From contig CALXBS010000008.1 in the NCBI GenBank assembly GCA_944386605.1, positions 1 through 50,526 on the forward strand: a DNA stretch of 50,526 nt, given 5' to 3'. The stretch is from an uncultured Clostridia bacterium. Lineage in GTDB: Bacteria > Bacillota > Clostridia > TANB77 > CAG-465. A program made the position numbers and the translations under genes. Below the pieces are notes generated by a model. The model was given only the letters and a program-made list of their open reading frames with translations, did no database searches and had not been told where the DNA came from. This document shows, piece after piece, positions 12,192-30,352 of the stretch (position 1 is its first letter; each line of letters starts with the position of its first letter).

Positions 12192-12821
12192 ATGGAAAAT
12201 TATAATGAAAATAATGTAGTAAATCTGGGAGGAAAAATTGCGTCTAATCCCGTTTTTAGCCATGAATTGTATGATGAAAAATTCTATAAATTAGATGTGG
12301 AAACAAAAAGATTAAGTGATTCAAGTGATATTTTGCCAATTATTGTTTCAGAACGTTTAATTGATATAGATGACTTAAAAATTGGAGAAATTGTTAATAT
12401 TGTGGGACAATTTAGGTCATATAATCAACAAACAGAAAGCAAAAGTAAATTAATTTTATCTATTTTTGCAAAAGAAATAGAAAAAACACAAGAGGATATA
12501 TTAACATTAAATGATGCAAATTTAATAGGATATATTTGTAAAACGCCTATTTATAGGAAAACACCTCTAGGAAGAGAAATTGCAGATGTATTAATTGCAG
12601 TAAATAGATCATATAAAAAATCTGACTATATTCCTTGTATATTATGGGGAAGAAATGCTAGATTTTGTGAGACTTTAGAAGTAGGAACTATGGTAAAAAT
12701 TAATGGTAGAATTCAGTCTAGAAAATATGAAAAGAAACTAGAAAATGGAGCTAGTGAAGAAAAAATAGCTTATGAAGTTTCTGTTTCAAAATTTTCTGTA
12801 GATAAATCGGAAGAAGAGTAA
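12192..12821 (+). CDS. Single-stranded DNA-binding-like protein with two OB folds
   Basis: A 209-residue cytosolic protein. Two SSB-like segments are visible: NVVNLGGKIASNPVFSHE... at 8-95 and NLIGYICKTPIYRKTPLGRE...IPCILWGRNARFCETL...VKINGRIQSRKYEKK at 108-180. The second has the strand pattern and the basic RIQSRKYEKK end of the SSB/PriB OB fold. It lacks the acidic flexible tail of the replicative SSB, though it ends SVDKSEEE. AAAGGAGG precedes the ATG. It sits just upstream of the secretion operon, where mobile elements often carry an ssb; whether it serves that system is open. Confidence 0.75.
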   Translation: MENYNENNVVNLGGKIASNPVFSHELYDEKFYKLDVETKRLSDSSDILPIIVSERLIDIDDLKIGEIVNIVGQFRSYNQQTESKSKLILSIFAKEIEKTQEDILTLNDANLIGYICKTPIYRKTPLGREIADVLIAVNRSYKKSDYIPCILWGRNARFCETLEVGTMVKINGRIQSRKYEKKLENGASEEKIAYEVSVSKFSVDKSEEE

Positions 12822-12840
12822 GTAAAATTACTCTTTTTTT
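12816..12840 (+). terminator. Terminator between convergent genes (SSB-like and M23)
   Basis: GAGTAA/TTACTC stem, 6-nt loop, T7 tract. The stem overlaps the SSB-like stop codon and, on the other strand, the end of the M23 gene, so it may act both ways. Confidence 0.8.
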
Positions 12841-13319
12841 ATGTATAAAAGAGGATCAAGAGTATTTTTATTAGAATCAAAGAGTGTAAAATGAAGATGG
12901 GGACCTGTGGTGATTCCATTTTGTATTCCATTATCTAGTATTTTAGGTCCTACAGTAGATATTTTTTGTTTTTCTTTAACGGTATCACCAATACTAACAA
13001 AATGATAAGAAGAAAGATGACCATATAATGAGGAAATGTTATTAGAATGAAGTATTGTAATATAGTTTCCAAAAGAAGTACTAAATCCAATTTGTGTGAC
13101 AATTCCTTCTGTACAAGAAAAAACGTCACTTCCTTGAGGAGCAAGAAAATCAATTCCATTATGAAAAAATGTTCCATTAAAAATTTCACGATAGCCGTAA
13201 TAGGAAGAAATATTCGTAAAATAAGTGGGATAAAAAAAGCTTGTATTTTGACTGGAATTTTCTAAAAGTGAGCAAAGAATTAAGATAAAAATAAATAAAA
13301 AGTTTTTAAAAAATTTCAT
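12828..13319 (-). CDS. Secreted M23 (LytM-type) metallopeptidase
   Basis: A 163-residue protein with an N-terminal signal peptide or anchor (MKFFKNFLFIFILILCSLL) followed by a compact M23 domain. Zinc ligands H53 and D57 lie in HNGIDF, with H101 in YGHL and H141/H143 in GPHLHF. It would cut peptide crosslinks of peptidoglycan outside the cell. The open frame extends to 13337, but the ATG at 13319 is preferred because the -10 box covers 13326-13331, placing the predicted transcript start on the A of this ATG; no ribosome site is present. It converges on the SSB-like gene and backs onto the secretion operon, so it may help open the wall for it. Confidence 0.87.
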   Translation of the reverse strand: MKFFKNFLFIFILILCSLLENSSQNTSFFYPTYFTNISSYYGYREIFNGTFFHNGIDFLAPQGSDVFSCTEGIVTQIGFSTSFGNYITILHSNNISSLYGHLSSYHFVSIGDTVKEKQKISTVGPKILDNGIQNGITTGPHLHFTLFDSNKNTLDPLLYIKKE

Positions 13320-13325
13320 AGAAAT

Positions 13326-13353
13326 ATCATAGCACATTTTATGTAAAAGTCAA
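13326..13353 (-). promoter_or_regulatory. Promoter giving a leaderless M23 peptidase mRNA
   Basis: On the minus strand: TTGACT (13353-13348), 16-bp spacer, TATGAT (13331-13326). The seventh base after the -10 box is the A of the ATG at 13319, and no Shine-Dalgarno sequence is present. Confidence 0.6.
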
Positions 13354-13452
13354 TTTTTTTTATAAAAAAGTGCTTAAAAATGCTATATTTTTAATAATTG
13401 CGTATAGACTAATAGGATATTGGTTAAAATATAAAAAATCATATTCAAACTA

Positions 13453-13481
13453 TTGATTTTTAAAAAAAATGTAGTTATAAT
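13453..13481 (+). promoter_or_regulatory. Promoter of the pilin genes (start of the secretion operon)
   Basis: TTGATT 13453-13458, 17-bp spacer, TATAAT 13476-13481. The leader is about 28 nt and contains AAGGAGG. Confidence 0.8.
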
Positions 13482-13515
13482 ATTAGTAAGGGTAAAAGTA
13501 AAGGAGGATATTATT

Positions 13516-13875
13516 ATGAAAAAGTCAAAGAAGATTTTGCTAAGAGCTTTACCTGTATTATTAGTTTTAGGTGTTATTTTCTTGGCATCAAATAGTGTAC
13601 TAGCTGTTAGTGCTGGATTACCAAATACAGGTAGTAATAAAATTAGTGGTGTTACTAATTTAGCAGGTACAATTTGGAATACTGTTGCTGTTATTATCCA
13701 AATTTTAGCAATTGCTGCAATTGTTATTGCTGGTGTTAGATATATGTTCGCTTCTGCAGATGAAAAAGCAGATATCAAAAAACAAACAGTAATATTAATA
13801 GTAGGTGCAGTTCTTGTATTTGCTGCAGTACCACTTGCACAATTCATTGGAAATTTAGCAAACAGCACTTTCTAA
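13516..13875 (+). CDS. VirB2/TrbC-like pilin subunit
   Basis: A 119-residue protein with a signal peptide (MKKSKKILLRALPVLLVLGVIFLASNSVLA) and two hydrophobic helices at about 51-73 and 83-105, joined by a short charged loop (ASADEKADIKKQ). This two-helix layout is that of VirB2/TrbC pilins. AAGGAGG precedes the ATG at 13516; the frame is open upstream but without a ribosome site. It is the first gene of the operon, with its own promoter, as expected for an abundant subunit. Its mature part is clearly related to the end of the next gene product (shared GTIWNT and a charged loop at the same place). Confidence 0.85.
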   Translation: MKKSKKILLRALPVLLVLGVIFLASNSVLAVSAGLPNTGSNKISGVTNLAGTIWNTVAVIIQILAIAAIVIAGVRYMFASADEKADIKKQTVILIVGAVLVFAAVPLAQFIGNLANSTF

Positions 13876-13975
13876 TAATAGCATATGAAAAGAAGAAATT
13901 AAAAGAAAATATGCTTGTAATATTTTTTTATCAACAATCTTACTGGAAAATGAAAAAAAGTAAGGGGTGATTAAA

Positions 13976-14968
13976 ATGAAAAAACATACTATGAATAAAA
14001 AAATTATGATGGTAGTATTACTAGTTTATGCATTTGGATTTATGAACATTCCTAATATTTTTGCTTCTCAGCCAAATCCATTACCATTCCCAGAGTTTGG
14101 AGTAACAACACCTAATTCGAGTGTATCAACGCCACCACTATTGCCATGGGGAGGCGAAACTACGAATGGTGCTTCAGATATTCCAAGTATTGATTGGGGC
14201 ACTCCATCAACAAATCCTAATGATGGAAATGAAAATACAGGAACAAATAATGGAGGAGATAATACTACTAGTAGCAATGATAGTAATACTAGTGGAGGAA
14301 GTAGCAGTAGTAGTAGCGGCGGTAGCAGTAGCAGCAGTAGTACGACTACTACAAATAAAACATCTAATAGTAGCGGAAATCCAATAACTGTTTCTCCAGG
14401 TGGTGGTAATGGTAGTGGTGGAGCTGCTTTTGATTTAGATAATATTTTAGGTTTTGCTAAAGATTTCTTTGGATTAGGAAAAAATGATGACGATGAGTTT
14501 GCAAGTGAAATTAATGAGGAATTGCAAGGGATTATAAACGTAGTTGTTAATTTTGGTAACTTAGTTATTTTTATAGCAGCAGTTGTACTAGGTGTAAAAT
14601 ATATCTGGTCTGGTGTTGAAGGCAAAATGATTGTAAAAGAAACTTTACCATCTTTTTGTATTGGTGTTACATTCTTCTATTTTGCTCAGAAACTAGTTGA
14701 TTTCTTCAAAATTATTGGAACGGATATTCAGAATACAACTTCTAGTAATGCAATCATTGGAACAATTTGGAATACAACCACATATTTGATTCAAATAGCT
14801 TGTATTGGTGGAATTGTTTTCCTAGGATTAAAATATATGTGGGCACCTGCAGATAAAAGAGCAGATTTTAAAAATCAATCTATTATGGTAGTATTAGGTT
14901 TAATATTAGTATTATCATCAGTAGAATTTATTAACTTTATTCTTAGTTTTGGAAATACTGTATTTTAA
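13976..14968 (+). CDS. Double VirB2-like pilin with Ser/Gly/Asn-rich linker
   Basis: A 330-residue protein starting at the ATG after AAGGGGTGATTAAA. Order: signal peptide (about 1-32); Pro-rich then Ser/Gly/Asn/Thr-rich low-complexity linker (about 35-150) with runs of serine codons; first two-helix unit (about 185-245, INVVVNFGNLVIFIAAVVLG... and SFCIGVTFFYFAQKLVDFF); second two-helix unit (about 262-330, GTIWNTTTYLIQIACIGGIV...MVVLGLILVLSS). The second unit parallels the short pilin across its length, including GTIWNT, the charged loop (APADKRADFKNQ) and the final NxxF. It could be a minor or tip pilin, or tether the pilus to the wall. I know of no named family for this fusion. Confidence 0.75.
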   Translation: MKKHTMNKKIMMVVLLVYAFGFMNIPNIFASQPNPLPFPEFGVTTPNSSVSTPPLLPWGGETTNGASDIPSIDWGTPSTNPNDGNENTGTNNGGDNTTSSNDSNTSGGSSSSSSGGSSSSSSTTTTNKTSNSSGNPITVSPGGGNGSGGAAFDLDNILGFAKDFFGLGKNDDDEFASEINEELQGIINVVVNFGNLVIFIAAVVLGVKYIWSGVEGKMIVKETLPSFCIGVTFFYFAQKLVDFFKIIGTDIQNTTSSNAIIGTIWNTTTYLIQIACIGGIVFLGLKYMWAPADKRADFKNQSIMVVLGLILVLSSVEFINFILSFGNTVF

Positions 14969-14971
14969 AGA

Positions 14972-15008
14972 AATGTTGCACAATTATTTCAATTGTGTAA
15001 CATTTTTA
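14972..15008 (+). terminator. Strong terminator after the pilin genes
   Basis: A 14-bp stem AATGTTGCACAATT/AATTGTGTAACATT (one G-T pair), loop ATTTC and T5. It separates the two pilin genes from the machinery genes. Confidence 0.85.
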
Positions 15009-15048
15009 TTTTCTTATCTAGATATGCTTTATTTTCCTTATCTGGGTA

Positions 15049-15077
15049 TTGATTTAAACTAGATATTATGATAAAAT
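15049..15077 (+). promoter_or_regulatory. Probable internal promoter for the secretion machinery genes
   Basis: TTGATT 15049-15054, 17-bp spacer, TAAAAT 15072-15077, directly after the pilin terminator. Confidence 0.55.
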
Positions 15078-15108
15078 TTTGTAAATATTGGTGCGAGGGG
15101 GAAAAGAT

Positions 15109-15450
15109 ATGGGAAAAACTTATGGAGTACCTAGAAGTGCAAAGGGTGAATCTCGTTTCTTATATGTATTCACAGTCCGCTCTTTGATTACAACACTTAT
15201 TTTTGGGGCTGTTGGAGTTGTGCTTTATTTTATTTTATCTTTTATTGGTTTAGGTGGTATTGGTCTGGTATGTGTTGTGGTACTTGCTGGTATTGGATTT
15301 GCAGTTGGAACATTAACAATTCCTGATTCTCCAATTGTAGGAAATTTGAGAAAAGCAGGTGGAGAAAAAGTAAGTGAAATTTTAATTAGAACGGCAACCT
15401 TTAGTAAGCGAAAAAAAATATATATTTACAGAGAGGGGTATAGAAAATAA
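15109..15450 (+). CDS. PrgI family protein (VirB3-like)
   Basis: A 113-residue inner-membrane protein with two adjacent hydrophobic spans (about residues 22-43 and 47-68) and short soluble ends. An N-terminal basic segment (YGVPRSAKGESRF) precedes the spans and a conserved-looking TLTIPDSPIVGNLRKAGGE follows them. This matches PrgI/TcpE-VirB3-like partners of VirB4 in Gram-positive type IV systems. The ATG at 15109 follows GAGGGGG; the frame is open from 15088. Its stop codon overlaps the next start by one base (TAATG). Confidence 0.8.
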   Translation: MGKTYGVPRSAKGESRFLYVFTVRSLITTLIFGAVGVVLYFILSFIGLGGIGLVCVVVLAGIGFAVGTLTIPDSPIVGNLRKAGGEKVSEILIRTATFSKRKKIYIYREGYRK

Positions 15451-16901
15451 TGAATTCTACAGTTGTAATTTTAATCATAGGTGGTTTAGCTGCTATTATA
15501 GCATACGTAATATATACAATGTCTAATAAGAAGAATGCAAGTGGAGGACAGACTACAACTAAATCTACTTCTCAAAGAGGTGGAAAAAAAGATGATAAAG
15601 ATAATGAGATTATTGATGGAAGTATCAGAAGAAGAAAAGAGACAAATATTCCTAGAAAAGATGTATTAGATTTTATGGAATTTGATAGCATTGCAGATAA
15701 TATGATTATTCAAGAAAATGGTACTAAATTTACAATGGTTTTGCAATGTAAGGGTATTAACTATGATTTGATGTCTGATATTGAACAACTTGCTGTAGAA
15801 GAAGGATTTATTGTATTTTTAAATACTTTAAAATTTCCTGTTCAATTGTACGTTCAAGCTAGAGCAGTAGATTTAAAGAAAAATTTAAATATTTATCAAG
15901 ATAGTGTAGATGATCTACTTACTAGATTTAATACTGCAGATGAAAATTACAAAGCACTAGCAAATGAATTAGATGTTGACTTTACAAAAGTAGCTGCTGC
16001 AAAAGAAGAAAGAGATAGAATGGCAAATATTGTAGAATATGCACAAGATATCACAAGATATGTTGAAAGAATTAGCTTAAATAAAAATATTTTACAAAGA
16101 AGATTTTATATTGTATTCTCATATTTTAAATCAGAAGTTACTTCTGTTAGTGAATTTTCAGAAGATGAAATTAGAGAAATTTGTCATAGAGAATTATATA
16201 CAAGAGGGCAATCTATTATGAGTGCTTTAATGTCATGTTCTGTTACTTCTAGACTTTTAGATTCTAATGAATTAGCAGAATTGTTATTTGTTTCCTATAA
16301 CAGAGATGATGAAAAATTAATGGATATTAGAACTGCATTAGATTCAGGATTCTATAGATTATATTCTACATCTAAAGATGTTTATGAGAAAAAACAAGAG
16401 CTTGCACAAAAAGAAGTGGAAGAAGAAGCTGCTAAGAGAGTACAAGAAGCAATTCGTTTAACATTAAGAAGTGCAGTAGTTCAATCAGAAGATGAAATTG
16501 TAGAAGAATTCGAGGAAAAAACAGATAGGCAAGCTTTAGAGATTATTAGAAATGCAGATTTAGATGATGATGCTAAAAATCATTTAACCAATATTATTGC
16601 AGAAAATCATGTTATTGGAGTAGAAGAAAGAAAAAGAGAACGTGCTAGAAGAAGAAAAGAACAAGAAGAAATTCCAGAGGGAACAGAAGAAGAAACACAA
16701 ACAACACAAGAAGAAAAACCAAAAGAAGCAGATGCAACTCACACAGATGAAAGACTAGAAAGAGTTATGCCAACTGCTCCAAATGTAAATAGAAATTATC
16801 TTGATGTAGAAGTAACAGAAGAAGCAACAAATGATACACAAAAACCAGCAGAGAAAAACAATAGTACATTGGATTCATCAGAAGATGATATTATTGTATA
16901 G
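15450..16901 (+). CDS. Membrane-anchored TraC/VirB4-N-like protein of the secretion system
   Basis: A 483-residue protein with one N-terminal membrane span (TVVILIIGGLAAIIAYVIY), a basic linker, then a soluble domain (about 70-300: DVLDFMEFDSIADNMIIQENGTKFTMVLQCKG...) resembling the N-terminal, non-ATPase domain of VirB4/TraC. It has no Walker motifs. A charged helical region and an acidic Glu/Thr-rich tail follow. Proteins of this kind sit between PrgI and VirB4 in some Gram-positive and candidate-phylum clusters. Translation is coupled to the PrgI gene by TAATG. It probably docks the ATPase to the membrane; the family assignment is moderately sure. Confidence 0.65.
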   Translation: MNSTVVILIIGGLAAIIAYVIYTMSNKKNASGGQTTTKSTSQRGGKKDDKDNEIIDGSIRRRKETNIPRKDVLDFMEFDSIADNMIIQENGTKFTMVLQCKGINYDLMSDIEQLAVEEGFIVFLNTLKFPVQLYVQARAVDLKKNLNIYQDSVDDLLTRFNTADENYKALANELDVDFTKVAAAKEERDRMANIVEYAQDITRYVERISLNKNILQRRFYIVFSYFKSEVTSVSEFSEDEIREICHRELYTRGQSIMSALMSCSVTSRLLDSNELAELLFVSYNRDDEKLMDIRTALDSGFYRLYSTSKDVYEKKQELAQKEVEEEAAKRVQEAIRLTLRSAVVQSEDEIVEEFEEKTDRQALEIIRNADLDDDAKNHLTNIIAENHVIGVEERKRERARRRKEQEEIPEGTEEETQTTQEEKPKEADATHTDERLERVMPTAPNVNRNYLDVEVTEEATNDTQKPAEKNNSTLDSSEDDIIV

Positions 16902-16915
16902 GAGGCCATGGATAA

Positions 16916-18994
16916 ATGAGTAGAGAAGAAAAAGAGGAATTAAAAGCTAAAAAATTAGAAGAGAGGAAAAAGGCAAGAGAGGAAAGAGATCGTATTCGTT
17001 TAGAAAGAAGAATGAGAAGAAAAGGAGTTCCAGAAGAGCAAATTATTAAATCTTCAGAAGAAGAAATTAATATTTTGGAAACCAATAAATCGGATATTAA
17101 AGATTTAATGGCACCTGCTGGAATCGATGCAAGTCATTATGATTATTTGGAAATCTTTTCTAAAATTTCAAGATTTGTAAGAACATTCTATGTAACCACT
17201 TTACCAAGGCAGGCTACTTTCCCTTATTTTTTGGCGGGAATTTATGAGTTTGGAGATGTAAATACTTCTGTATATATTAATCCAATCTCAGAAACAGTTT
17301 CACAAAAGGATTTAAATAAAACGATTGTAGAATTGCAATCAGAAAGATATGTTGCAAACGATAGAGGAGATATTAACAGGGCTTCTGTTTTAGCACAAAA
17401 ACAAGCAGAGGCGGAAGCGCTAAGAGATGAAATTGCAGCAGGTTATAATAAGTTATTTGAGGCAACCATCGTAGCAACCTTATTTTCATATAGTAAAACA
17501 GAGCTTGATAAAGCTTCAGAATTATTGGCAATGGAGGCTTCTAAAAACCTAATCGGTATTAAAGCAACATGGGCACTTCAAGAAGAAGCATTTCAAACAA
17601 ATTTACCTTTAAACAAAAATAAATTAACAAGAAAGCATACTTTTGATAGGGGATCTATGTCTACCGTATTTCCATTTTTATCATCTGATATAGGGCATGA
17701 TATCGGTGTTCCTATTGGAATTAACAAACAGACCGGACTTCCAGTTTTATTTGATAATTTCCATTCTTCATTAACCAATTATAATATGATTATATTTGGT
17801 AAATCTGGTTCTGGTAAATCTGTTACGATTAAAACGATTATGGCAAGATCTTCTATTTTGATGGGCGTAGAAAACTTGGTAATTGACGCAGAAGGTGAAT
17901 ATGTAGTTGTTGCGGATTCTTTAAATGGAATTAATATTAATATTAGTCCTAACAGTAAGACTGTTATTAATATCTTTGATATTGAGCCAGAGGTAACAAG
18001 AGATGAAATTACAGGAAAAGATAGAATCGTATTAAATGTAGAGAACAAAGTAGAGGACGTTACACAAGCGTTATTAACAATGGCACGTGGTGCTACTAGA
18101 AGTGCAGAAGTAAATGAGCTTACAAAACAAATTATTGCAGAAATTGTTGCGGAGCTATATCAAAAAGCAGGTATCAATAATGATATTAATTCTTTGTATT
18201 TAGATTCTCATACAGAATTTAATGCTGTAGATGGTACAACAAGTGTGATAGGAACTGCTAAGAAACCAATGCCTACTATTAGTGATTGGTATGATTTATT
18301 AGTAGAAAAATCACGAGAAGATCTTAACGAAACTTATGCATACCACTATAGTTATCTATTAAAAGTTATGAGGCAATATTGTAAAAAGTTTGATGGTCAG
18401 ATGGCTTACTTTGATGGTCAGTCTACCTTTGAATTGATGGATGGAAATCCTTTTATTAATATTAACTTATCACAACTAGAAGAAAAGTTTGCTAGACCAC
18501 TTGCTCAACAGATTCTTCTTTCTTGGGTATGGGAAAAATATGTTAAAAAGAATAGTGAAAATAAAACAAAAGCTAGAAAGAAAAGAGTTCTTGTCGATGA
18601 GGCTTGGATGTTACTAGATTATCCAGAAGCGATCCAATTCTTAAATACAATGGCAAGACGTGCCAGAAAAAGAAACGTTTCGTTAGCTGTTGTATCACAG
18701 AAATTCCAAGATTTCTATGAGAAAAAAGAAGCGCAAGCAGTTCTTACTTCATCAGAAGTAAAACTATTCTTAGCACAGGATAAATCTGAAATTCAATATT
18801 TAAAAGAAGTATTTAAATTAAGTGATGGTGAAACAGATTTCTTGTTAACTTGTTCAAGAGGTGAAGGGTTAATTAAAATTGGGCAAGAATCTGCAGTAAT
18901 AGCAATTCAACCTACTCAAAAAGAATTTGAGTTTGTTGAAACAAACTTATCTAAGATTATAGAGCTTAGACAACAGAAACAAAATAATAATTAG
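16916..18994 (+). CDS. VirB4-type ATPase of the type IV secretion system
   Basis: A 692-residue cytosolic ATPase that would power pilus assembly or export. A basic N-terminal segment is followed by a VirB4 N-domain (about 75-250). The motor domain has Walker A GKSGSGKS at residues 295-302 and Walker B RVLVDEAWMLLDY with D561-E562, followed by MARRARKRNVSLAVVSQKFQDF and the TraC-type end. TAGGAGG precedes the ATG; an ATG 8 nt upstream runs into TGA almost at once. It follows the TraC-like gene by 14 nt and precedes VirB6 by 11 nt. It is the only secretion ATPase in the window; I find no VirD4 or VirB11 homologue. Confidence 0.95.
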   Translation: MSREEKEELKAKKLEERKKAREERDRIRLERRMRRKGVPEEQIIKSSEEEINILETNKSDIKDLMAPAGIDASHYDYLEIFSKISRFVRTFYVTTLPRQATFPYFLAGIYEFGDVNTSVYINPISETVSQKDLNKTIVELQSERYVANDRGDINRASVLAQKQAEAEALRDEIAAGYNKLFEATIVATLFSYSKTELDKASELLAMEASKNLIGIKATWALQEEAFQTNLPLNKNKLTRKHTFDRGSMSTVFPFLSSDIGHDIGVPIGINKQTGLPVLFDNFHSSLTNYNMIIFGKSGSGKSVTIKTIMARSSILMGVENLVIDAEGEYVVVADSLNGININISPNSKTVINIFDIEPEVTRDEITGKDRIVLNVENKVEDVTQALLTMARGATRSAEVNELTKQIIAEIVAELYQKAGINNDINSLYLDSHTEFNAVDGTTSVIGTAKKPMPTISDWYDLLVEKSREDLNETYAYHYSYLLKVMRQYCKKFDGQMAYFDGQSTFELMDGNPFININLSQLEEKFARPLAQQILLSWVWEKYVKKNSENKTKARKKRVLVDEAWMLLDYPEAIQFLNTMARRARKRNVSLAVVSQKFQDFYEKKEAQAVLTSSEVKLFLAQDKSEIQYLKEVFKLSDGETDFLLTCSRGEGLIKIGQESAVIAIQPTQKEFEFVETNLSKIIELRQQKQNNN

Positions 18995-19005
18995 GTGATA
19001 ATATT

Positions 19006-20028
19006 ATGAAAAAAAAGAAAAGTAGATTAAAAAATTTTAAACAATGCTTAAAAAGAAATAAAAAAATGATTTTTACTGTATTATTGTTATTATTAGCAAT
19101 TAGTGTATTTTCTTCTTTTGAAAATATCTCATATGCTAGAATTACAGATGAAGGACAACAAAGTGGATGGGACAGTTTTAATGATATACTAGGTGCTATT
19201 GTATCCGGTATTTTGCAGTTTGGTATGGGTGTATTAGGTGCACCATTTGCAGCTATATTTGGTGCGTTAGCCCTACTATTATTCTTGATATTATGGCTAT
19301 TGTTTACTACACTGGGTGTGACGGATGGATTAATTTCATTCCCATTTCCTGATACCATTGTATTTAATAAAGTACCATTCTTTGATCCAAACTTTATTAA
19401 TCCAACTTCAGATGCCTCTGCGCCTGTTCATATTTTACAAGGAACAATTTCCAGCTTATATTATACCTTCTTTACCATAGCAATAACGGTTTTTGTTATT
19501 GCTGCAATGGTAATTGGTATTAAACTTGCTTTATCTTCTATTGGTAGCGAGAAAGCACAGTATAAACAGGCTTTAAATAATTGGATTTTTGGTATTGTAT
19601 TGTTATTTACAGTACATATTTTAATGGCGGGAATATTTGCATTAAATGAAGGGATTGTTGAGGCCGCGTCCCATGCTTCGGGAGGAATTACCTTTACAAT
19701 AGGGGCATTTGACTGGATACCTGTTGCGGGTAATGTTATTGGAAATATTTTGGATATTGGAGCAGATCTTTTGGGAACATTAACAGGTCAAGAAATTAGT
19801 GCTGGAATCACTCTGGATGCATTTCCTGGATATGCCGGTATTATCATTATTCTAGTTATCAAGACTATGGGTGGAGACTTAATTGCTGCTTTAACACTAT
19901 TAACAATTTTAGGACAAACCGTAGCATTAGTGATTATGTATATAAAGAGATTGTTTTACTGTATCATACTTGGAATTATGGCACCATTAATTGTTGCAGT
20001 AGATGTTATTAAAAAATCAATATCTTAA
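19006..20028 (+). CDS. VirB6/TrbL-like polytopic protein, N-terminal part
   Basis: A 340-residue membrane protein. A signal-like N-terminal span (MIFTVLLLLLAISVFSSF) is followed by about six more hydrophobic segments. The end, ALVIMYIKRLFYCIILGIMAPLIVAV, has the basic-aromatic helix followed by an AP turn typical of VirB6-like proteins of Gram-positive conjugation systems, where the chain normally goes on into another helix pair. Here it stops, and the expected continuation (NGIFANWFKNFTIIVFTQSFHAVYLLFILKF) opens the next gene in a different frame. TAGGTGATAAT precedes the ATG. Confidence 0.75.
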   Translation: MKKKKSRLKNFKQCLKRNKKMIFTVLLLLLAISVFSSFENISYARITDEGQQSGWDSFNDILGAIVSGILQFGMGVLGAPFAAIFGALALLLFLILWLLFTTLGVTDGLISFPFPDTIVFNKVPFFDPNFINPTSDASAPVHILQGTISSLYYTFFTIAITVFVIAAMVIGIKLALSSIGSEKAQYKQALNNWIFGIVLLFTVHILMAGIFALNEGIVEAASHASGGITFTIGAFDWIPVAGNVIGNILDIGADLLGTLTGQEISAGITLDAFPGYAGIIIILVIKTMGGDLIAALTLLTILGQTVALVIMYIKRLFYCIILGIMAPLIVAVDVIKKSIS

Positions 20029-20051
20029 ATGTATTGGAGGGAATAAATAAA

Positions 20052-21407: not shown

Positions 21408-21428
21408 AAAGAGTAAGGAGGTTCATGT

Positions 21429-22004: not shown

Positions 22005-22015
22005 GGAGGAATAGA

Positions 22016-22900: not shown

Positions 22901-22916
22901 AAAGACATGGTAATAT

Positions 22917-22948
22917 AAACCTGTGGGTGTCTATTACCTACAGGTTTT
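22917..22948 (+). terminator. Hairpin before the large hydrolase gene (partial terminator)
   Basis: AACCTGTGGG pairs with CCTACAGGTT (one mismatch), followed by only four T. It is more likely an attenuator or processing site than a full stop, because the hydrolase gene 42 nt on has no clear promoter of its own. Confidence 0.5.
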
Positions 22949-22989
22949 CCATATATTTAACAGAAATGAAAAGAAGGTGAATTAAGTTA

Positions 22990-25900
22990 ATGGATAAAGA
23001 TAAAAACCACTATGATCCTGATTTAGATGATGAAAATGATGATGAGTTAGACGAGTTAGATGAAGTAGAAGAAGTCTCTTCATCGAGTGATGGTAGTTCT
23101 TTAAAAGAGGATGTAAAGGATGCAAAAGAAAAGACTAAAAAGGCAAAGGAAGAATACGAAAAATTAAGACAACAAAAGTTACAAGCATTAGATCAAAATG
23201 CGTCTGAATTAAGTAAAAAGGCAAGTAGTGAGACGACTAAACAAGGGGCTAAACAGGTCGCCCAAGAAAGTAGTGAAAAACTTGCACAAGAAGGCGGTAA
23301 AAAAGCAACTCAAGAAGCTGGTATGCAGTTAGCACAAGGTGCAGGAAAAGAAGTAGCAAAAGAAGCTGGAAAACAGGCAGCTAAAGAAGGAGCTAAAGCG
23401 GGTGCTAAGGCGGGTGCTGCAGCGGCTGCTGAAGGTGCTGCAGCTTTTATTCCATATGTAAATGTTGCAGTTCTTGCTTTAGAGGCAATCAATGCTATTA
23501 GAAAAGTAGGCAGAAAAATTAAATCTAAACTTACAGGAAAATCAGAAGAAGAATTAAAAGAAGAATCTAAAAGGAAAAGAAGAATCATTTTAATTCTTAT
23601 CATAGCCATTATTGTAGTGTTCTTTTTTGGAGGCATTGGTGGCGGTAAATATATCATGAGTGAAATTATTCAAACCGATATAGACGCCCTAATTACTAGA
23701 AGAGAAAGACGTTATGGGGAAGACTTTAATTTAACAAGAACGAATTCTTCCGGAGAAACAGAACATTATAAACCATTAATTTTATTTTCTGCCGAAGAAT
23801 ATGATGAAACAATTAATAAAAGCTATCCAGATGATAAATGTTATGTGGACATGTTAAAAGAAGATTATTCAGGTACTTTAAATGGACTTTTATTAAAAGA
23901 TGTAAATATTACAGGAATTGCTGGTGATACGCCAACAGAAGAGGAAAATTATATTGCTAGCGGTAAAATGGCTTTAAAATTCTTGCAAGCTGAAAAATCC
24001 AATTTTAATAAAGTTTTTTGGATTAAGTATTCAAATAATTCATCTTATGATTATACAAAATCAGGAACTTATACATCAGAAGCAGATATGGCAGCAAATG
24101 ACCAAAAAGCTACTTTAGTAAGGTCTACTCAAGAATCTGGTTCTGTTAAAATGCAAAATGGAGTGTTTGGATCATTACTAAATGTACCAAATTTAACAGA
24201 ATATGATATTTTACCAGGAGCTAGTGAAGAAGAAAAAGCAATGGTATATATTAATATGTTATCTCCATATATGCAAAAATGGATTATTCCTTTTGCTATA
24301 TTAGTAGATACAGAAGGAGATAAAACATTTGCAAATTATGTCTTAAATGATATGGCTCATGAGGTAAAAGCAAATTTATATGAGCTAAACCAGGAAACAA
24401 AAACTACCAATAAATATTATTATTTACAAATAGAGCAGACATGGCATTGGGATGTTATGGTAGAAAAAACAACTACATGGGAAAGTGAAAGTACAAATGC
24501 AAATGGAGAGACTGTTACACACACGCATACAAGAACGAGTACAAGTACTTATACTGAAGATAATAAACATAAATTAGACGAAGTGACCAATTCTAGAGAT
24601 CATAAGCCAGGAACTAGTGTTTCAGGTAGTTCTTCTGATGTGTCACAGTGGGCATATGTACCAGCAGATCATTCTTCTGGAGATACAGACTATGAGTATT
24701 ATATTGATAATGTATATTTAGAATATACACTAAAAGCTGGTCCGGTTGTTGCAGTGGATAATGGAGAACCAATGGTACAAGAAATTACTGTATCTAGAAC
24801 CATTGAACCATATCGTTATGTTCCAAAATTATCTTATGTAGAAGACTTTTATAATATATTAAGTGCAGAGTATAGTATTATTCCAATTGCTGAGACTAAT
24901 GCACCTTCAACTACCAATGGAGCAAACTTAGGTGGTGTGGAATTATATGATGAAGAAAATGGAATTGGACTTGTTAGTTTCGAAGAAACTTGGCAAGAAA
25001 GCTTTAATATTATAAGTTCTAAAACAGAAACTTATAAAGTATCTTATTATACAGAAGAGGACTATGAAAATATTGGAAGAAGAATTTCTAGAGTAGAATG
25101 GAAGCAAGACTGGGGAAATGTTATTAAAGCGGATGGTAGTGACATTAGTGATACTTCTATTTCTCTGGGCGGTGGTAGTGGAACAGGTGGAGGAATGACT
25201 GCTACAAAACAAGCATTATTTGAGTGGATTGTTCCATTAGCCAAGCAGTTACAAAAAGAAACTGGCCTATTGCCTTCTCTTACAATTGCCCAAAAAATTC
25301 AAGAATCTGGATGGAATTGGACAGATAGTATTATAGAAACAGAAGGACATAATTATTGGGGAATGAAATGTGGTTCGCATTGGACAGGTGACTATCTAAT
25401 ACTTAATACGAAAGAAGATGATGGAACAGGAAATCTATATGAAATTCAAGATGCATTTAGAAAATACGAATCTGATGAAGCGGGATTTTCTGGTAGAGGA
25501 GACTTTTTCTGGTCAAATTCTAGGTATCGAAATGTACTTTTAGCATGTTTTGATTTAGATTGGGAAGCCGCAGTTGAAGACTTTAAAACAAATGGTTATG
25601 CAACAGATATAAAATATGCTAATAGTTTACAATTAATTATTCAGCAAAACGAGTTATATCAATATGATAATGATCCAGAATACCAATTTGATGGAACAAT
25701 CCCAGATTATGCGGATTATAACCCATATACAGGAGAGATTTTTGGAGGAGATGGTAGTTCAAGTGGTGGCATAGGCGTTAATACAGTTCCTGGTGCTGAA
25801 TTTGAAACAGATCCTATTTATAGTGAATTAAAAAATAATCCAATTTATCCAGAAAAAACTGCTGCTGAACTAGTATCTGCTTTTAGAAAGTATTCTGGTT

Positions 25901-27198
25901 CACATGGATATAGTTATGATGATTTATATTTTGCTTTTTCACAAATTGATGAATATTATCCTGATTCAGCGAATCCTTCTCTTGGAGGAGCTACACAATT
26001 AAGTAATCTAAAGATTCCTGATGGAGGATTTGGATGGCCTGTTGAAATTACAGATTCTAATCCAGGTGTTAAGGTAATCAATTGCTTATATGGTTATACA
26101 GAAGGATATGGAACATCACATAATGGGGTAGATATTTCAAGAGGTGATTTATTATACAAGGAAGGAAACCTAAGTAGAGGTCCAAATATTGTAGCAACAC
26201 ATGATGGTGAAGTGGTATATGCAAGTGCAAATCCAACAAGTGATGAGGATTCTTATACTTATATTCAGATAAAAACAACAGATGGAGCATATATTACAGA
26301 ATATGGTCATTTATCAGAGATTCATGTAGCAGTAGGTGATACTGTTACAAAAGGCCAAGTAATTGGTGTTATGGGAAATACAGGAAATTCTACAGGTGTA
26401 CATTTACATTATGTTATTTATAACACAGCAAATGGTGGAAAAGAAAGATTAGATCCATTAGATTTTTATGAATTAACACCAGAATATGGAAGTATCGATA
26501 GAGCTACTATTACAGGAATTCCTACAGGATATGAATATAAAGGATCAAAAACAGGTTATTTAGGTGGAAATTATTCTGGAGATCATGATGTTATGGTAAC
26601 AACTGCAGGAACATTCCCAAGATATAGACAGGGAAGTGGAGAAGTTTGGAGTAATGTTACTTATGGTGGAGGAACAATGTCTACTTCTGCTTGTGGACCT
26701 ACTTCTATGGCAATTATTTTATCTGGTTTAGGTTTAGTAATTCCTGGATATGATGGTTCAACTTTAAATGGATATACGTCACCAGCAAATAATATTATGG
26801 AACCAACAGAAACAGCAAAATATTGTCGTGATGTAGGATGTATGACGTCCCAAGGAATGGCACATTCTTATCCTGGAAAAGTTATGTCAAATTTTGGGAT
26901 AGAAACTATTACATTAGAACGAGGATCAGCGGCTACAGTGTTATCATATTTAGAACAAGGATATGTTGCAATGGCTTCTACATCTACCGGATTTTTTACA
27001 GGTGGTGGTCATATTATTGCTATTCCGGGAACAGATGGAAATGGAAATATTGCTGTAATAGATCCTAATAAAGCTGAAAGAGATGGATTTTATACAGTTG
27101 ACCAAATGAATGGTGTTGCACCAATGCCAGCTGGTATTGGTAGTGGCGGTAGAACGAATTCAAATGTTAAAAAATGGTGGGTATTTAAAATCAACTAG
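22990..27198 (+). CDS. Giant VirB1-like wall hydrolase: glucosaminidase + M23 peptidase + C39-like peptidase
   Basis: A 1402-residue bitopic protein. Order: acidic then Ala/Lys/Gly-rich helical cytoplasmic part (1-190); basic stop and one membrane span (about 199-218); a large external region of unknown fold (225-730); a GH73-type glucosaminidase-like domain (about 736-890; KIQESGWNW, EGHNYWGMKCG); an M23 peptidase (about 1010-1160) with H1044/D1048 in HNGVD and H1138/H1140 in VHLHY; and a papain-like C39-type domain (about 1195-1402) with C1235 in SACGPTSMA, H1341 in GGGHIIAIPG and D1358 in VIDPN. It would cut glycan strands and peptide bridges to make a channel through the wall. Related VirB1-like proteins usually carry two catalytic domains; three is unusual. 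Confidence 0.88.
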   Translation: MDKDKNHYDPDLDDENDDELDELDEVEEVSSSSDGSSLKEDVKDAKEKTKKAKEEYEKLRQQKLQALDQNASELSKKASSETTKQGAKQVAQESSEKLAQEGGKKATQEAGMQLAQGAGKEVAKEAGKQAAKEGAKAGAKAGAAAAAEGAAAFIPYVNVAVLALEAINAIRKVGRKIKSKLTGKSEEELKEESKRKRRIILILIIAIIVVFFFGGIGGGKYIMSEIIQTDIDALITRRERRYGEDFNLTRTNSSGETEHYKPLILFSAEEYDETINKSYPDDKCYVDMLKEDYSGTLNGLLLKDVNITGIAGDTPTEEENYIASGKMALKFLQAEKSNFNKVFWIKYSNNSSYDYTKSGTYTSEADMAANDQKATLVRSTQESGSVKMQNGVFGSLLNVPNLTEYDILPGASEEEKAMVYINMLSPYMQKWIIPFAILVDTEGDKTFANYVLNDMAHEVKANLYELNQETKTTNKYYYLQIEQTWHWDVMVEKTTTWESESTNANGETVTHTHTRTSTSTYTEDNKHKLDEVTNSRDHKPGTSVSGSSSDVSQWAYVPADHSSGDTDYEYYIDNVYLEYTLKAGPVVAVDNGEPMVQEITVSRTIEPYRYVPKLSYVEDFYNILSAEYSIIPIAETNAPSTTNGANLGGVELYDEENGIGLVSFEETWQESFNIISSKTETYKVSYYTEEDYENIGRRISRVEWKQDWGNVIKADGSDISDTSISLGGGSGTGGGMTATKQALFEWIVPLAKQLQKETGLLPSLTIAQKIQESGWNWTDSIIETEGHNYWGMKCGSHWTGDYLILNTKEDDGTGNLYEIQDAFRKYESDEAGFSGRGDFFWSNSRYRNVLLACFDLDWEAAVEDFKTNGYATDIKYANSLQLIIQQNELYQYDNDPEYQFDGTIPDYADYNPYTGEIFGGDGSSSGGIGVNTVPGAEFETDPIYSELKNNPIYPEKTAAELVSAFRKYSGSHGYSYDDLYFAFSQIDEYYPDSANPSLGGATQLSNLKIPDGGFGWPVEITDSNPGVKVINCLYGYTEGYGTSHNGVDISRGDLLYKEGNLSRGPNIVATHDGEVVYASANPTSDEDSYTYIQIKTTDGAYITEYGHLSEIHVAVGDTVTKGQVIGVMGNTGNSTGVHLHYVIYNTANGGKERLDPLDFYELTPEYGSIDRATITGIPTGYEYKGSKTGYLGGNYSGDHDVMVTTAGTFPRYRQGSGEVWSNVTYGGGTMSTSACGPTSMAIILSGLGLVIPGYDGSTLNGYTSPANNIMEPTETAKYCRDVGCMTSQGMAHSYPGKVMSNFGIETITLERGSAATVLSYLEQGYVAMASTSTGFFTGGGHIIAIPGTDGNGNIAVIDPNKAERDGFYTVDQMNGVAPMPAGIGSGGRTNSNVKKWWVFKIN

Positions 27199-27211
27199 AT
27201 AAGAAAGGAGA

Positions 27212-27247
27212 ATTCTCAGTGTGTATTTTTTATTACACACTGAGAAT
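27212..27247 (+). promoter_or_regulatory. Perfect 14-bp hairpin between ribosome site and start codon
   Basis: ATTCTCAGTGTGTA (27212-27225) is perfectly complementary to 27234-27247, with an 8-nt T-rich loop. It begins two bases after AAAGGAG (27204-27210). The fold buries a GTG at 27219. It also brings the ribosome site to an effective distance of about 11 nt from the ATG at 27258. Confidence 0.7.
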
Positions 27248-27257
27248 AAGTATAAAT

Positions 27258-27710
27258 ATGGAGAAATTCTTAAATATTTTTTTAAATATAGTAATTATAC
27301 TATTAATTTGTTATTTGATATTTCTTTGTGCACAAAATTTTTGGATAGCACCAAAGGAAGAAAATGCATTTCAAGGAACAATTATTACTGATTATGAGGA
27401 ATTAACAGTAGGTCGAACTATTGTAGATCAATATATTTTGGCATATAGAGAAGGAAATTATGATAAATTAAGTTATATTTTAACTGAATCTATTCAAAAA
27501 GAAAATACTATTTATGAACAAATTTCTCGTGATATTCCTAGTGGCACTGCATTTATTACATATATGGAAAAAGATAGTAGTCATAATTATAAAATTACGT
27601 ATGTTATAGGAGATAGTAATGTAGAAAATGTACTTTTAGTAAAAACAAACCCAGCAGAGATGACATTTGAAATACAATATGATAGTATCATAGAAGGAAA
27701 TGAGGTGTAA
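27258..27710 (+). CDS. Small membrane-anchored NTF2-like protein of the secretion operon, third copy
   Basis: 150 residues from the ATG at 27258: a membrane span (FLNIFLNIVIILLICYLIFLCA) then an external domain with GRTIVDQYILAYREGNYDKLSYILTESIQKE, the helix pattern seen in the two VirB8-like proteins upstream, and a short beta-rich end. GTG 27219 is an alternative start (163 residues) with better linear spacing to AAGGAG, but it lies inside the stem of a perfect hairpin. I prefer the ATG because the extra 13 residues look unlike a natural N-terminus. Function is inferred only from topology and position. Confidence 0.6.
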   Translation: MEKFLNIFLNIVIILLICYLIFLCAQNFWIAPKEENAFQGTIITDYEELTVGRTIVDQYILAYREGNYDKLSYILTESIQKENTIYEQISRDIPSGTAFITYMEKDSSHNYKITYVIGDSNVENVLLVKTNPAEMTFEIQYDSIIEGNEV

Positions 27711-27712
27711 GT

Positions 27713-28222
27713 ATGGAAAAGTATGTTTGGACAATTTTAAAAATAGTGTTGATCATTGCGTTAATTATAGCAATTGTTTGCTTGCAAAAAAATGAAAAGA
27801 CAGATTATTCTGATTTTGATGAGACTTTTCCAGATAATACTTACTATTCAGATTATACCTATAATTTAGATGAAAAATATGAAAAGCTAGCTATAGATGA
27901 ATTTCTAAATTTATTAAATACTGGAAATTATGAGCAAGCTTATCAAAAGCTTACACAGTCTTGCAAGGATGAAAGTTTTCCAACAGTAGAAGCGTTTAGA
28001 AATTATGTAAGAGAAAACTTGTTTTTGCCAGGTGCTATTAATGATAATGTAAACGTTTTAGCACAAAGTATAAAAAATTATTCTGATGGAGACATACCTG
28101 TGGCAGTTTATGTAGTTAACATTAGAGATAATAGCATAGGAATTTATGAGGAACACGATTCTTATGGTATTAAATTAGATTTATATATTATAAATCCTTT
28201 CCAAATTGAATTTAAAATTTAA
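27713..28222 (+). CDS. Small membrane-anchored NTF2-like protein of the secretion operon, fourth copy
   Basis: A 169-residue bitopic protein, starting 2 nt after the previous stop with GAGGTG as ribosome site. One membrane span (ILKIVLIIALIIAIVCL), an acidic Tyr/Asp-rich linker, then an external domain with LAIDEFLNLLNTGNYEQAYQKLTQSCKDE. The Asn-Tyr-Glu-Gln-Ala-Tyr turn is again the NTF2/VirB8-like signature. Last gene before a strong terminator. With the other three it forms a series of single-span proteins likely to build a heteromeric external ring or collar. Confidence 0.6.
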   Translation: MEKYVWTILKIVLIIALIIAIVCLQKNEKTDYSDFDETFPDNTYYSDYTYNLDEKYEKLAIDEFLNLLNTGNYEQAYQKLTQSCKDESFPTVEAFRNYVRENLFLPGAINDNVNVLAQSIKNYSDGDIPVAVYVVNIRDNSIGIYEEHDSYGIKLDLYIINPFQIEFKI

Positions 28223-28229
28223 TTTTATA

Positions 28230-28265
28230 AATAATCATTTCAATTTCTGAAATGGTTATTTTTTT
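28230..28265 (+). terminator. Terminator at the end of the secretion operon
   Basis: A 13-bp stem (AATAATCATTTCA/TGAAATGGTTATT, one G-T pair), 5-nt loop, T5. Confidence 0.85.
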
Positions 28266-28293
28266 ATATCATTACATAAAATGTTATTTTCTA

Positions 28294-28322
28294 TTGATAT
28301 ATTTTAGAAAAAATGATATAAC
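28294..28322 (+). promoter_or_regulatory. Promoter of the S1-domain protein gene
   Basis: TTGATA 28294-28299, 17-bp spacer, TATAAC 28317-28322; leader about 80 nt. Confidence 0.6.
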
Positions 28323-28407
28323 TATAATAGTATTATATTAGTAAATCACTTTTCTTAAGTTATTATTGCTAATATTTAAGTAAATAAAAGTAAAAAGGAG
28401 AAAAGGA

Positions 28408-29220
28408 ATGGAAAACAGTGAAAAAGAAGTTAAGAAAAAATCTAAAAGAGGAATAGAAAACTATTCTTTAGAAGCTTTAGAGAAAGCAAAAAAATCTCAA
28501 CAGGTACTAGATATGCACATTGATGAAATTGATTCCAATTTAAATATGGTTGGAATAGTAGGAAGAAAGATAAAGGCAAGGATTCCTCGAAATGAAGCGT
28601 CTAGTATTGTAGGCGATGATGGTTTGGTAGAAGAAAGACATATTGTGAATAAAAAAGGAAAAGTTATTCCAGTATGTATTAAAGAAATTATCACAAATGA
28701 AGATGGTTCAGTAGAGCTAGTTATGTCAAAAAGAATGCTAGAGTTAAAAGTTAGAAAGTGGATGTATATGCACTTAAAACCTGGTATGAAATTAAAAGGT
28801 GTGGTTGTTGCGACTACAGAATATGCTGCTTTTGTAGATGTAGGTGGTGGTGTAACAGGAATATTAAAATTACTAGATATTTCTGATTCTATGTTACAAA
28901 GTGCTGCTGACATGTTTAAAGTAAGTCAAAGAATTGAAGTGATTGTAAAAAAATATGATCGTGATACAGGTAGAATTGAATTATCTTACAAAGAATTTTT
29001 AGGAAGTTTTGAAGAAAATATTCAAAAATATCATGAGGGTGACATTGTAGAAGGAATTGTTAGAAATAGAATAAAGTCTGGTGTTTTTGTAGAACTACAA
29101 CCTAATTTAGTAGGATTAGCAGAGCATGTAAATGGAATAGAATATGGTCAAAAAGTGCTAGTAAGTATTAGAAGAATTATTCCAGAAAAAAAGAAAATAA
29201 AGTTAATTATTATTGGTTAA
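28408..29220 (+). CDS. S1-domain RNA-binding protein
   Basis: A 270-residue cytosolic protein. A basic N-terminal segment (1-40) leads to a first S1-like module (about 40-115) and two clearer S1 repeats: 124-195 (LKPGMKLKGVVVATTEYAAFVDVGGGVTGILKL...GRIELSYKE) and 207-268 (HEGDIVEGIVRNRIKSGVFVELQPNLVGLAE). This is like the small S1-type proteins of Clostridia rather than full ribosomal protein S1 of 4-6 repeats. AAAAAGGAG precedes the ATG. It likely aids translation initiation or binds RNA. Nothing ties it functionally to the secretion operon upstream, from which a terminator separates it. Confidence 0.85.
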   Translation: MENSEKEVKKKSKRGIENYSLEALEKAKKSQQVLDMHIDEIDSNLNMVGIVGRKIKARIPRNEASSIVGDDGLVEERHIVNKKGKVIPVCIKEIITNEDGSVELVMSKRMLELKVRKWMYMHLKPGMKLKGVVVATTEYAAFVDVGGGVTGILKLLDISDSMLQSAADMFKVSQRIEVIVKKYDRDTGRIELSYKEFLGSFEENIQKYHEGDIVEGIVRNRIKSGVFVELQPNLVGLAEHVNGIEYGQKVLVSIRRIIPEKKKIKLIIIG

Positions 29221-29230
29221 TTGCAATGGC

Positions 29231-29258
29231 TTGACATTTCATGTATACTATATATAGG
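29231..29258 (+). promoter_or_regulatory. Promoter of the replication-relaxation-like gene
   Basis: TTGACA 29231-29236, 16-bp spacer, TATAGG 29253-29258. The -35 box is perfect and the -10 box weak; the leader is about 60 nt. Confidence 0.55.
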
Positions 29259-29323
29259 TATGAAAATACCGATTATTTTGGACAGTTAAATTTCAAAATT
29301 AAAATTTAAGGAGTGAAAATTTT

Positions 29324-30352
29324 ATGGTAGAAGATAAAGAAGTAAAAACATTAATATCTCCTTTCGCAGTAAGGGAAGATGAAAAAAAGGTTTATGATGG
29401 TAAAGATGGATTTGCCTCTGTAAACCAAGTTGTATTTAAAATGGATATGGGATATATTAATGAATCGCATATTCAAGCTTTAGAAGTAGTAAATGAATTT
29501 GGATTTGTTACTTCAAGACAAGTAACACAAATTTTAGATTTACGTGGAAAATTAAATGATATTGAAGAAGATAAAAAACAAAATAAAGTGGCAAAATGGT
29601 TAGAGGATCTAACAAAATCAAAAGTAATTGCAAGATATTATTTTCAAAGTGAAGCAGGTAAAAGTTCTTATAGAGCATATTGTATTGATAAAATTGCAAC
29701 TTATATCTTAAAACAAAGAAATATTCCTACAACATGGCAACCTACAGATAATACAAAACCTGCCTATGCGGTAAAAAGAAAACTTGCTGGAAATCAAATT
29801 ATAATTGCATATATGCAAAAAGTAGGAAGCTTTGTAAGCTCTAATCCAAACTTATTGTTATATTCTAAACGCTTTAATGTTAAGTTTAAACCAACTGGTG
29901 GGCTAATCGTATTAAAAGAAGGCGCAAATGAAGTAAATTTTGTTTTTGAAGTAGTAAGAAGAAATGAAGATTGGCAAAATATGTTTGCTGAAAAAGTACA
30001 GTTATATTCAGATTTTTATGAAAATTTTACTAGAAATGATGCAGGATTTTATGATAAACCACAAGTTATTTTTGTAGGAGAAGATATTCAACACATTGCA
30101 GAAATGTTTAGAATTATCAAAAAAGTTGGAATGGTACTAGAAGATAGTGAAATGTATTTTACAACAGAGTTAAAGCATTTAGATGAAGATTTAGAAAATA
30201 CCATTAGTGTATTTGAATTAGATCCTGAAACAAAGAAATATAGAGTGGTAACCAAACATTTAGATATTTTAAAACCTGGTGATAATCAGGCTGGTAAATC
30301 AAATGGTTTAAATACCAATATGAAATTTAATGCAAATATGATTATTGAATAA
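29324..30352 (+). CDS. Replication-relaxation-like protein (winged helix plus nuclease-like fold)
   Basis: A 342-residue cytosolic protein. The N-terminal part has a winged-helix motif (HIQALEVVNEFGFVTSRQVTQIL, about 48-70). The C-terminal half (about 150-290) has a beta-rich core NFVFEVVRRNEDWQNMFAEKVQLYSDFYEN...PQVIFVGED, which resembles the restriction-endonuclease-like region of the replication-relaxation family of plasmid and conjugative-element proteins. AAGGAGTG precedes the ATG. It stands alone between two terminators, 1.1 kb after the secretion operon. If the family call holds, it is the only gene here besides the SSB-like one that suggests a plasmid or ICE origin. Confidence 0.6.
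   Translation: MVEDKEVKTLISPFAVREDEKKVYDGKDGFASVNQVVFKMDMGYINESHIQALEVVNEFGFVTSRQVTQILDLRGKLNDIEEDKKQNKVAKWLEDLTKSKVIARYYFQSEAGKSSYRAYCIDKIATYILKQRNIPTTWQPTDNTKPAYAVKRKLAGNQIIIAYMQKVGSFVSSNPNLLLYSKRFNVKFKPTGGLIVLKEGANEVNFVFEVVRRNEDWQNMFAEKVQLYSDFYENFTRNDAGFYDKPQVIFVGEDIQHIAEMFRIIKKVGMVLEDSEMYFTTELKHLDEDLENTISVFELDPETKKYRVVTKHLDILKPGDNQAGKSNGLNTNMKFNANMIIE

Follow-up and report, generated by a model that had tools for sequence, protein, structure and literature searches.

The question raised by a locus in an uncultured Clostridia bacterium (metagenome-assembled genome [MAG] GCA_944386605.1; GTDB order TANB77; 1.66 Mb, 92% complete) is whether its row of type IV secretion system (T4SS) genes still belongs to a conjugative element or has become a fixed function of the cell, as was proposed in an earlier note on this DNA. 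The stretch analyzed (the window) is the entire contig C8 of 50,526 bases, and operon context was readable only to the contig ends. Open reading frames (ORFs) and profile matches confirmed the T4SS genes that had been reported at 13516–28222, every one of them on the plus strand. According to a recent review, nearly all known functions of Gram-positive T4SSs consist of DNA transfer (PMC12857230). The results presented here make it reasonably probable that the locus encodes a vertically inherited, non-conjugative T4SS of the MPF_FATA class, which derives from a conjugation cassette and is now a standing envelope machine of the order; for any particular substrate, confidence is lower.

Distribution of the system was surveyed with its 692-amino-acid (aa) ATPase as query. 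This protein, encoded by the second of two genes that together make up VirB4, is referred to as VirB4C, and the product of the preceding, TrsD-like gene as VirB4N; f1, f3, and f5 denote families of the order, and G and L numbers denote genomes and loci. In a sample of 143 genomes from 33 genera, all of them MAGs and 129 of good quality, VirB4C was present in 108 genomes (E ≤ 1e-60), nearly all at 61–92% identity. Positive genomes included 99 of the 129 of good quality and represented 28 of the 33 genera. When 391 genomes were drawn across the class, all 15 positives (E ≤ 1e-90) belonged to the order, while none of the roughly 370 genomes from other orders matched at this threshold. Viral contigs scanned for VirB4C gave no match, the best identity among phage records was below 27%, and the best plasmid VirB4 matches were at most 34% identical. 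One f3 genome carried an f1-like VirB4C (76%; G122:C39:5920-7875) in addition to its own copy, which reflects either horizontal transfer or MAG contamination.

Selection on the locus was assessed from ratios of nonsynonymous to synonymous substitution rates (dN/dS), a check proposed in the earlier note, with the closest genome (G002, locus L031) as reference; because dS was near or above 1, the values are rough. VirB4C (0.061) was under stronger constraint than the neighboring housekeeping gene pgi (0.136) and resembled a flanking replication-relaxation-like gene (0.052). Higher values were obtained for the TrsD part (0.207), the first pilin (0.209), two VirB6-like proteins (VirB6a, 0.20; VirB6b, 0.37), and two VirB8-like proteins (B8a, 0.36; B8b, 0.54). 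Constraint on the inner ATPase is at the level of housekeeping proteins, whereas outward-facing components evolve quickly. Distances between VirB4C sequences correlated with those between pgi sequences (Mantel r 0.73, p 0.0005, n = 12 loci), a result that is supportive and not independent, since pgi adjoins the T4SS locus. Use of an SSB-like flanking gene as a species proxy was abandoned, as its distances followed neither VirB4C (Mantel r 0.25) nor pgi (0.24).

Inspection of the T4SS locus revealed no relaxase, integrase, or coupling protein, and the only direct repeats around it were short and at chance level, with no long ones framing it, in agreement with the earlier note. Relaxases of the types MOB_P (PF03432) and MOB_T (PF02486) were absent from the 92% complete genome in a search with positive controls that did not cover MOB_F, MOB_Q, MOB_C, or MOB_H. 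Sporadic presence among close relatives, or a relaxase accompanied by terminal repeats, had been named as signs of a mobile element; the survey instead found 108 positive genomes among 143 and no framing repeats. The claim that a coupling protein is lacking held for the locus but not for the genome, since two VirD4-type ATPases were encoded at separate housekeeping loci, one present in 136 of the 143 sampled genomes and the other in 131. The first (683 aa; PF02534 E 2e-76) reached 430 bits (cut-off 250) with the conjugative family NF045973 and lay beside dnaX-recR-murI in the source genus. The second, an 838-aa VirD4-like protein, was encoded by pth-rplU-obg in the f1 genomes that were read. 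These ATPases may serve the T4SS described here, a second VirB4-like locus, or something else.

Several side observations concern these distant genes. The 683-aa VirD4 adjoined a 175-aa protein without a known Pfam family in five of five further genomes read from f1, f3, and f5 (L114:8527-11378), and in one genome the 838-aa VirD4-like gene adjoined a gene for a cell-surface-like protein of 1476 aa whose C-terminus carries an anchor (L115:8981-13411). The second VirB4-like locus (L113:7959-11434 on contig C9 of G000; L140:5678-10755 in G039) encoded a TrsD-like protein, a 603-aa VirB4-like ATPase, and a P-loop protein of MinD/CpaE-like type. It lay among housekeeping genes, was free of pilins and VirB6, and had homologues of about 570–614 aa in nearly all relatives searched; it looks like another domesticated VirB4 pair.

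VirB4 of the main locus is divided over two genes, a TrsD-like N-terminal part with an N-terminal transmembrane (TM) helix (VirB4N, 15450–16901) and an ATPase part (VirB4C, 16916–18994). The NCBIfam model VirB4_plasma matched the former with its positions 97–227 and the latter with its positions 280–891. In hhalign comparisons, the VirB4N profile matched, with 98–99% probability, the small proteins that three Bacillota plasmids encode in the position of TrsD. A predicted structure of VirB4N, of modest confidence (mean predicted local distance difference test [pLDDT] score 64), had as top match residues 11–206 of the N-domain of R388 TrwK/VirB4 (Z 11.1 over 166 residues), and four further R388 entries were among its structure matches. 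The earlier description of a TraC-like protein next to VirB4 was therefore right as to VirB4, whereas the supposed separate protein at 15450–16901 is the VirB4 N-domain. VirB4C contained a Walker A motif GKSGSGKS and a Walker B motif DEAW, and matched PF19044 (E 2.8e-16) and PDB entry 4ag5 (E 7e-27). It was of Gram-positive type, with NF045971 (CD1110-type; E 6e-65) as best family model, followed by NF045975 (E 3.5e-62), both with scores below the curated equivalog cut-offs. Across related loci, the median gap between the two genes was 18 bases, and Walker B was intact in all 81 VirB4C sequences.

Upstream of VirB4, the operon encodes two VirB2-like pilins. Pilin 1 (13516–13875; PF04956 E 1.6e-8, PF18895 E 1e-5) starts at an ATG at 13516 within an ORF listed from 13453. 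Pilin 2 (13967–14968) is a long form that carries an insert rich in Ser and Gly and two hydrophobic segments resembling a pilin; it matched PF04956 in two stretches (1e-8) as well as PF18895. A conserved terminator between the pilins and the next gene was considered and rejected: the window has one (14969–15007), but a strong hairpin with T-tail occurred in only 13 of 74 loci and in 4 of 74 shuffled ones, mostly owing to the shortness of the gap. The PrgI/VirB3-like membrane protein that follows (15088–15450) matched PF12666 at E 5e-4, below the curated cut-off, and its position is fixed.

Downstream of VirB4C lies the 'split VirB6' of the earlier note. The polytopic VirB6-like protein a (19006–20028) gave a weak match to NF045848 (E 8e-4) and fell into a cluster of 145 proteins that spans 76 of 81 loci; protein b (20034–21407) gave no family match with hidden Markov models and was assigned by position and gene clustering only. 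Among the 'several VirB8-like proteins,' B8b (22016–22900) was the one supported by a domain model: its AlphaFold2 structure (mean pLDDT 85) combined a TM helix, an NTF2-like domain (matches at residues 72–169), and a beta-sandwich. No VirB8 chain was among the listed Foldseek matches of this model, which does not exclude VirB8 identity. For B8a (21429–22004; conserved position, no family match) and for two accessory proteins, B8c (27219–27710; ORF and operon position only) and B8d (27713–28222; weak tblastn matches in other loci), the label is based only on protein length, a single TM helix, and location. Between B8b and B8c lies a VirB1-like wall hydrolase of 1402 aa (22990–27198), in which a cytoplasmic N-terminal part is followed by a TM segment and by glucosaminidase (PF01832, E 5e-22), M23 (PF01551, E 3e-19), and C39-like (PF13529, E 3e-5) domains. 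A divergent gene for an M23 peptidase (12828–13337, minus strand; PF01551 E 1.5e-22) precedes the pilins and has the SSB-like gene on its other side, an arrangement that recurs in most f1 loci. Further upstream, a TraX-family (PF05857) membrane protein was encoded at 10092–10868.

This architecture recurred when ORFs of 80 related loci and of the window were clustered. PrgI was present in 76 of these 81 loci, each time immediately 5' of VirB4N, VirB4N in 75, VirB6-like proteins in 76, and pilins in at least 69; the order pilin-PrgI-TrsD-VirB4-VirB6 was preserved in about 75–81 loci. Pilins were the most expanded part, with one to seven per locus (commonest, three to four) and a mean identity within arrays of 32%. 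VirB6-like proteins numbered one to five per locus; clustered members reached 1476 aa, and L128 contained an ORF of 1866 aa. In one f1 genome (G015, L121:7350-17513), two giant surface proteins of 1871 and 1473 aa were encoded between hydrolase and S1 gene, beside an IS200-like transposase ORF; the 1473-aa protein, which was the one tested, matched SpaA repeats and, weakly, a thioester domain.

Flanking genes had been interpreted as remnants of an element. In f1, the T4SS lies between the SSB-like and M23 genes on one side and the S1 and replication-relaxation-like genes on the other. None of these three further flanks is a T4SS part: the SSB-like gene (12192–12821, plus strand; PF00436) was found elsewhere on the chromosome in f3 and f5 genomes, the S1-domain gene (28408–29220, plus strand; PF00575) stood beside ribosomal genes without a T4SS in G047, and the gene for a replication-relaxation-like winged-helix protein (29324–30352, plus strand; PF13814 at 18.9 bits, below cut-off) occupied ordinary sites in other families. 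These were regarded as ordinary host chromosomal genes, and the remnant interpretation was rejected. In other families the T4SS itself was located elsewhere, in some cases next to genes for M16 peptidases or ABC transporters. Because other families hold the flank genes and the T4SS at separate places, the glyA-pgi/gap site and its flanks are lineage-specific; the reported location was correct for this genome but not as a general site. Functional linkage, first suggested by the lack of the replication-relaxation-like and SSB-like genes in several VirB4-less genomes of the family, was also dropped, as these genes are ordinary ones elsewhere and several absences were contig breaks or missing contigs.

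The closest published counterpart is the T4SS of Patescibacteria, in which TrsD stands beside VirB4 together with PrgI/VirB3 and arrays of 2–11 VirB2-like proteins, mostly without a relaxase and with VirD4 far from virB4 (PMC12102498). A T4SS is essential to epibiotic growth of Ca. Southlakia epibionticum (summarized in PMC12857230). Compared by published description, both systems combine chromosomal MPF_FATA parts, TrsD next to VirB4, PrgI/VirB3, VirB6, a divergent pilin array (here of at most seven), and a distant VirD4; a relaxase is mostly lacking in Patescibacteria, and no MOB_P or MOB_T type was found here. In contrast to Patescibacteria, the host is a Clostridia order with genomes of 0.9–2.2 Mb and no evidence here of epibiont life, a large VirB1-like hydrolase and VirB8-like proteins regularly lie by virB4, and extended VirB6 proteins occur in tandem. 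With conjugative MPF_FATA systems of Bacillota plasmids and integrative and conjugative elements (ICEs), such as pGO1 trs, pCF10 prg, and CD1110-type elements, the locus shares PrgI, TrsD, VirB4, VirB6, and a wall hydrolase; it differs in a VirB4 at most 34% identical, in the lack of a relaxase or coupling gene by the operon, and in its chromosomal, order-wide occurrence. The Rickettsia rvh T4SS (see also PMC2653234) is likewise non-mobile and lineage-wide, with dispersed parts and several extended VirB6 proteins, but belongs to an unrelated diderm host and to MPF_T, with VirB7/9/10. The 89K T4SS of Streptococcus suis, also Gram-positive and reported to export protein, differs in its location on a mobile pathogenicity island and in that no pilins have been reported (PMC12857230). 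A literature search of partial coverage found no earlier description of such a T4SS in Clostridia.

VirB2 has been described as absent from Gram-positive T4SSs except those of Patescibacteria (PMC12857230). However, Thermoanaerobacterium plasmid pMU3262 and Geobacillus plasmid pGspE55-1 encoded, in the same order, pilin, PrgI, TrsD, VirB4, VirB6, and hydrolase, with the PF18895 pilin above cut-off; a Jeotgalibacillus plasmid had the same gene order and a sub-threshold pilin match. VirB6 was assigned in these plasmids by position and size. Because Bacillota plasmids bear the same pilin-PrgI-TrsD-VirB4-VirB6 cassette as this locus, Patescibacteria are not the only Gram-positive bacteria whose T4SSs include pilins. 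Mobile-looking cassettes were also observed in two genomes of the order (L138:6416-13074 and L139:6443-13088), with genes for a helix-turn-helix protein, a pilin (above the Pfam cut-off in one of the two), PrgI-like and TrsD-like proteins, a VirB4 about 30% identical, VirB6, and M23. A VirB4 tree that included plasmids was not used to trace the source, as long branches meet in it.

Domestication was supported because VirB4C is order-wide, its constraint exceeds that of pgi, and MOB_P and MOB_T relaxases are lacking; the further arguments of the earlier note, from a missing coupling protein and from the flanks, did not stand. Descent from a Bacillota-plasmid-like cassette would be the simplest history. 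These results suggest that a conjugation machine was converted to a permanent cell-contact device, and a contact-dependent pilus or translocation device is the most likely function. We infer pilus formation, the contact role, the coupling to distant VirD4s, and the nature of the substrates as follows. VirB4, with its TrsD and ATPase parts, PrgI/VirB3, and VirB6 would form a membrane translocon that drives assembly of a VirB2 pilus. The ectodomains of the VirB8-like proteins and of VirB6, together with the glucosaminidase/M23/C39 hydrolase, would allow passage through the thick wall, and the pilus may establish contact with other cells. Substrates, which may be proteins and less likely DNA, would probably be delivered by one of the two distant VirD4-type ATPases; export of a protein delivered by a distant VirD4 is favored over conjugation.

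Several results weigh against a standing envelope machine of this kind. VirB4C was unmatched in 35 of the 143 genomes, and some of these absences are apparently true, which indicates that the system is not essential to all; others are assembly gaps, as in the f1 genomes G003, G012, and G025, whose contigs end at the locus border with the SSB-like or S1-side gene last. Since its sites are family-specific, the T4SS was relocated or regained at least a few times. In 28 of 81 VirB4C sequences, Gly replaces Ser in Walker A (GKG for GKS); in L055-L067, for example, the motif reads GKSGAGKG, with Gly at the magnesium-binding Ser/Thr position. Both VirD4s also occur in T4SS-less genomes, which makes their coupling to this T4SS putative. 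To the gap in the relaxase search noted above is added MOB_V, for which PF01076 was silent in the genome and likewise in the controls.

This gap, together with the VirD4 of conjugative family NF045973 and the occurrence of the same cassette on Bacillota plasmids and, in two genomes of the order, on segments that look mobile, would fit a degenerate or cryptic ICE that still moves by means of a relaxase in trans or of an unsearched type. Such an element is nevertheless distinctly unlikely, in view of the order-wide, clade-structured spread, the housekeeping-like constraint on VirB4C, the absence of flanking repeats, MOB_P, and MOB_T, and the location of the VirD4s among dnaX-recR and obg-rplU-pth. 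Little probability is assigned to a machine for DNA uptake or release, comparable to Helicobacter Com, archaeal Ced/Ted, or the gonococcal genetic island, with SSB, S1, and winged-helix partners. The VirD4-type ATPases of a DNA-transfer family and the SSB-like and replication-relaxation-like genes that border the f1 locus are consistent with it, but in the rest of the order these neighbors sit at ordinary chromosomal sites, even where VirB4C is unmatched.

A pilus that mediates adhesion without any translocated substrate would account for the marked expansion of the pilin arrays, for the locus with SpaA/thioester adhesin-like giants, and for conservation of VirD4 independently of the T4SS. Retention of the channel parts VirB6, VirB8-like proteins, and wall hydrolase makes this improbable, and a plain pilus has no need of large VirB6 ectodomains. 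More specific than the contact-dependent device preferred here is the proposal that a whole order of gut Clostridia of ordinary size uses a Patescibacteria-type pilus T4SS, of second independent or of shared origin outside Patescibacteria, for obligate or habitual cell contact in delivery, predation, or exchange; it is put forward tentatively and is rather unlikely.

In this Clostridia order, which is found in gut and rumen metagenomes, a T4SS that has pilins but is not mobile belongs to the regular cellular equipment. The locus is an exception to the published statement on VirB2 (PMC12857230), as are the Thermoanaerobacterium and Geobacillus plasmids, and such related plasmids are a plausible source of the cassette. 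The function of a T4SS that lacks a relaxase in Gram-positive bacteria could be studied here in a second lineage, whose cells are larger and may be easier to work with, and the order raises the question whether the Patescibacteria machine arose from such a Bacillota cassette.

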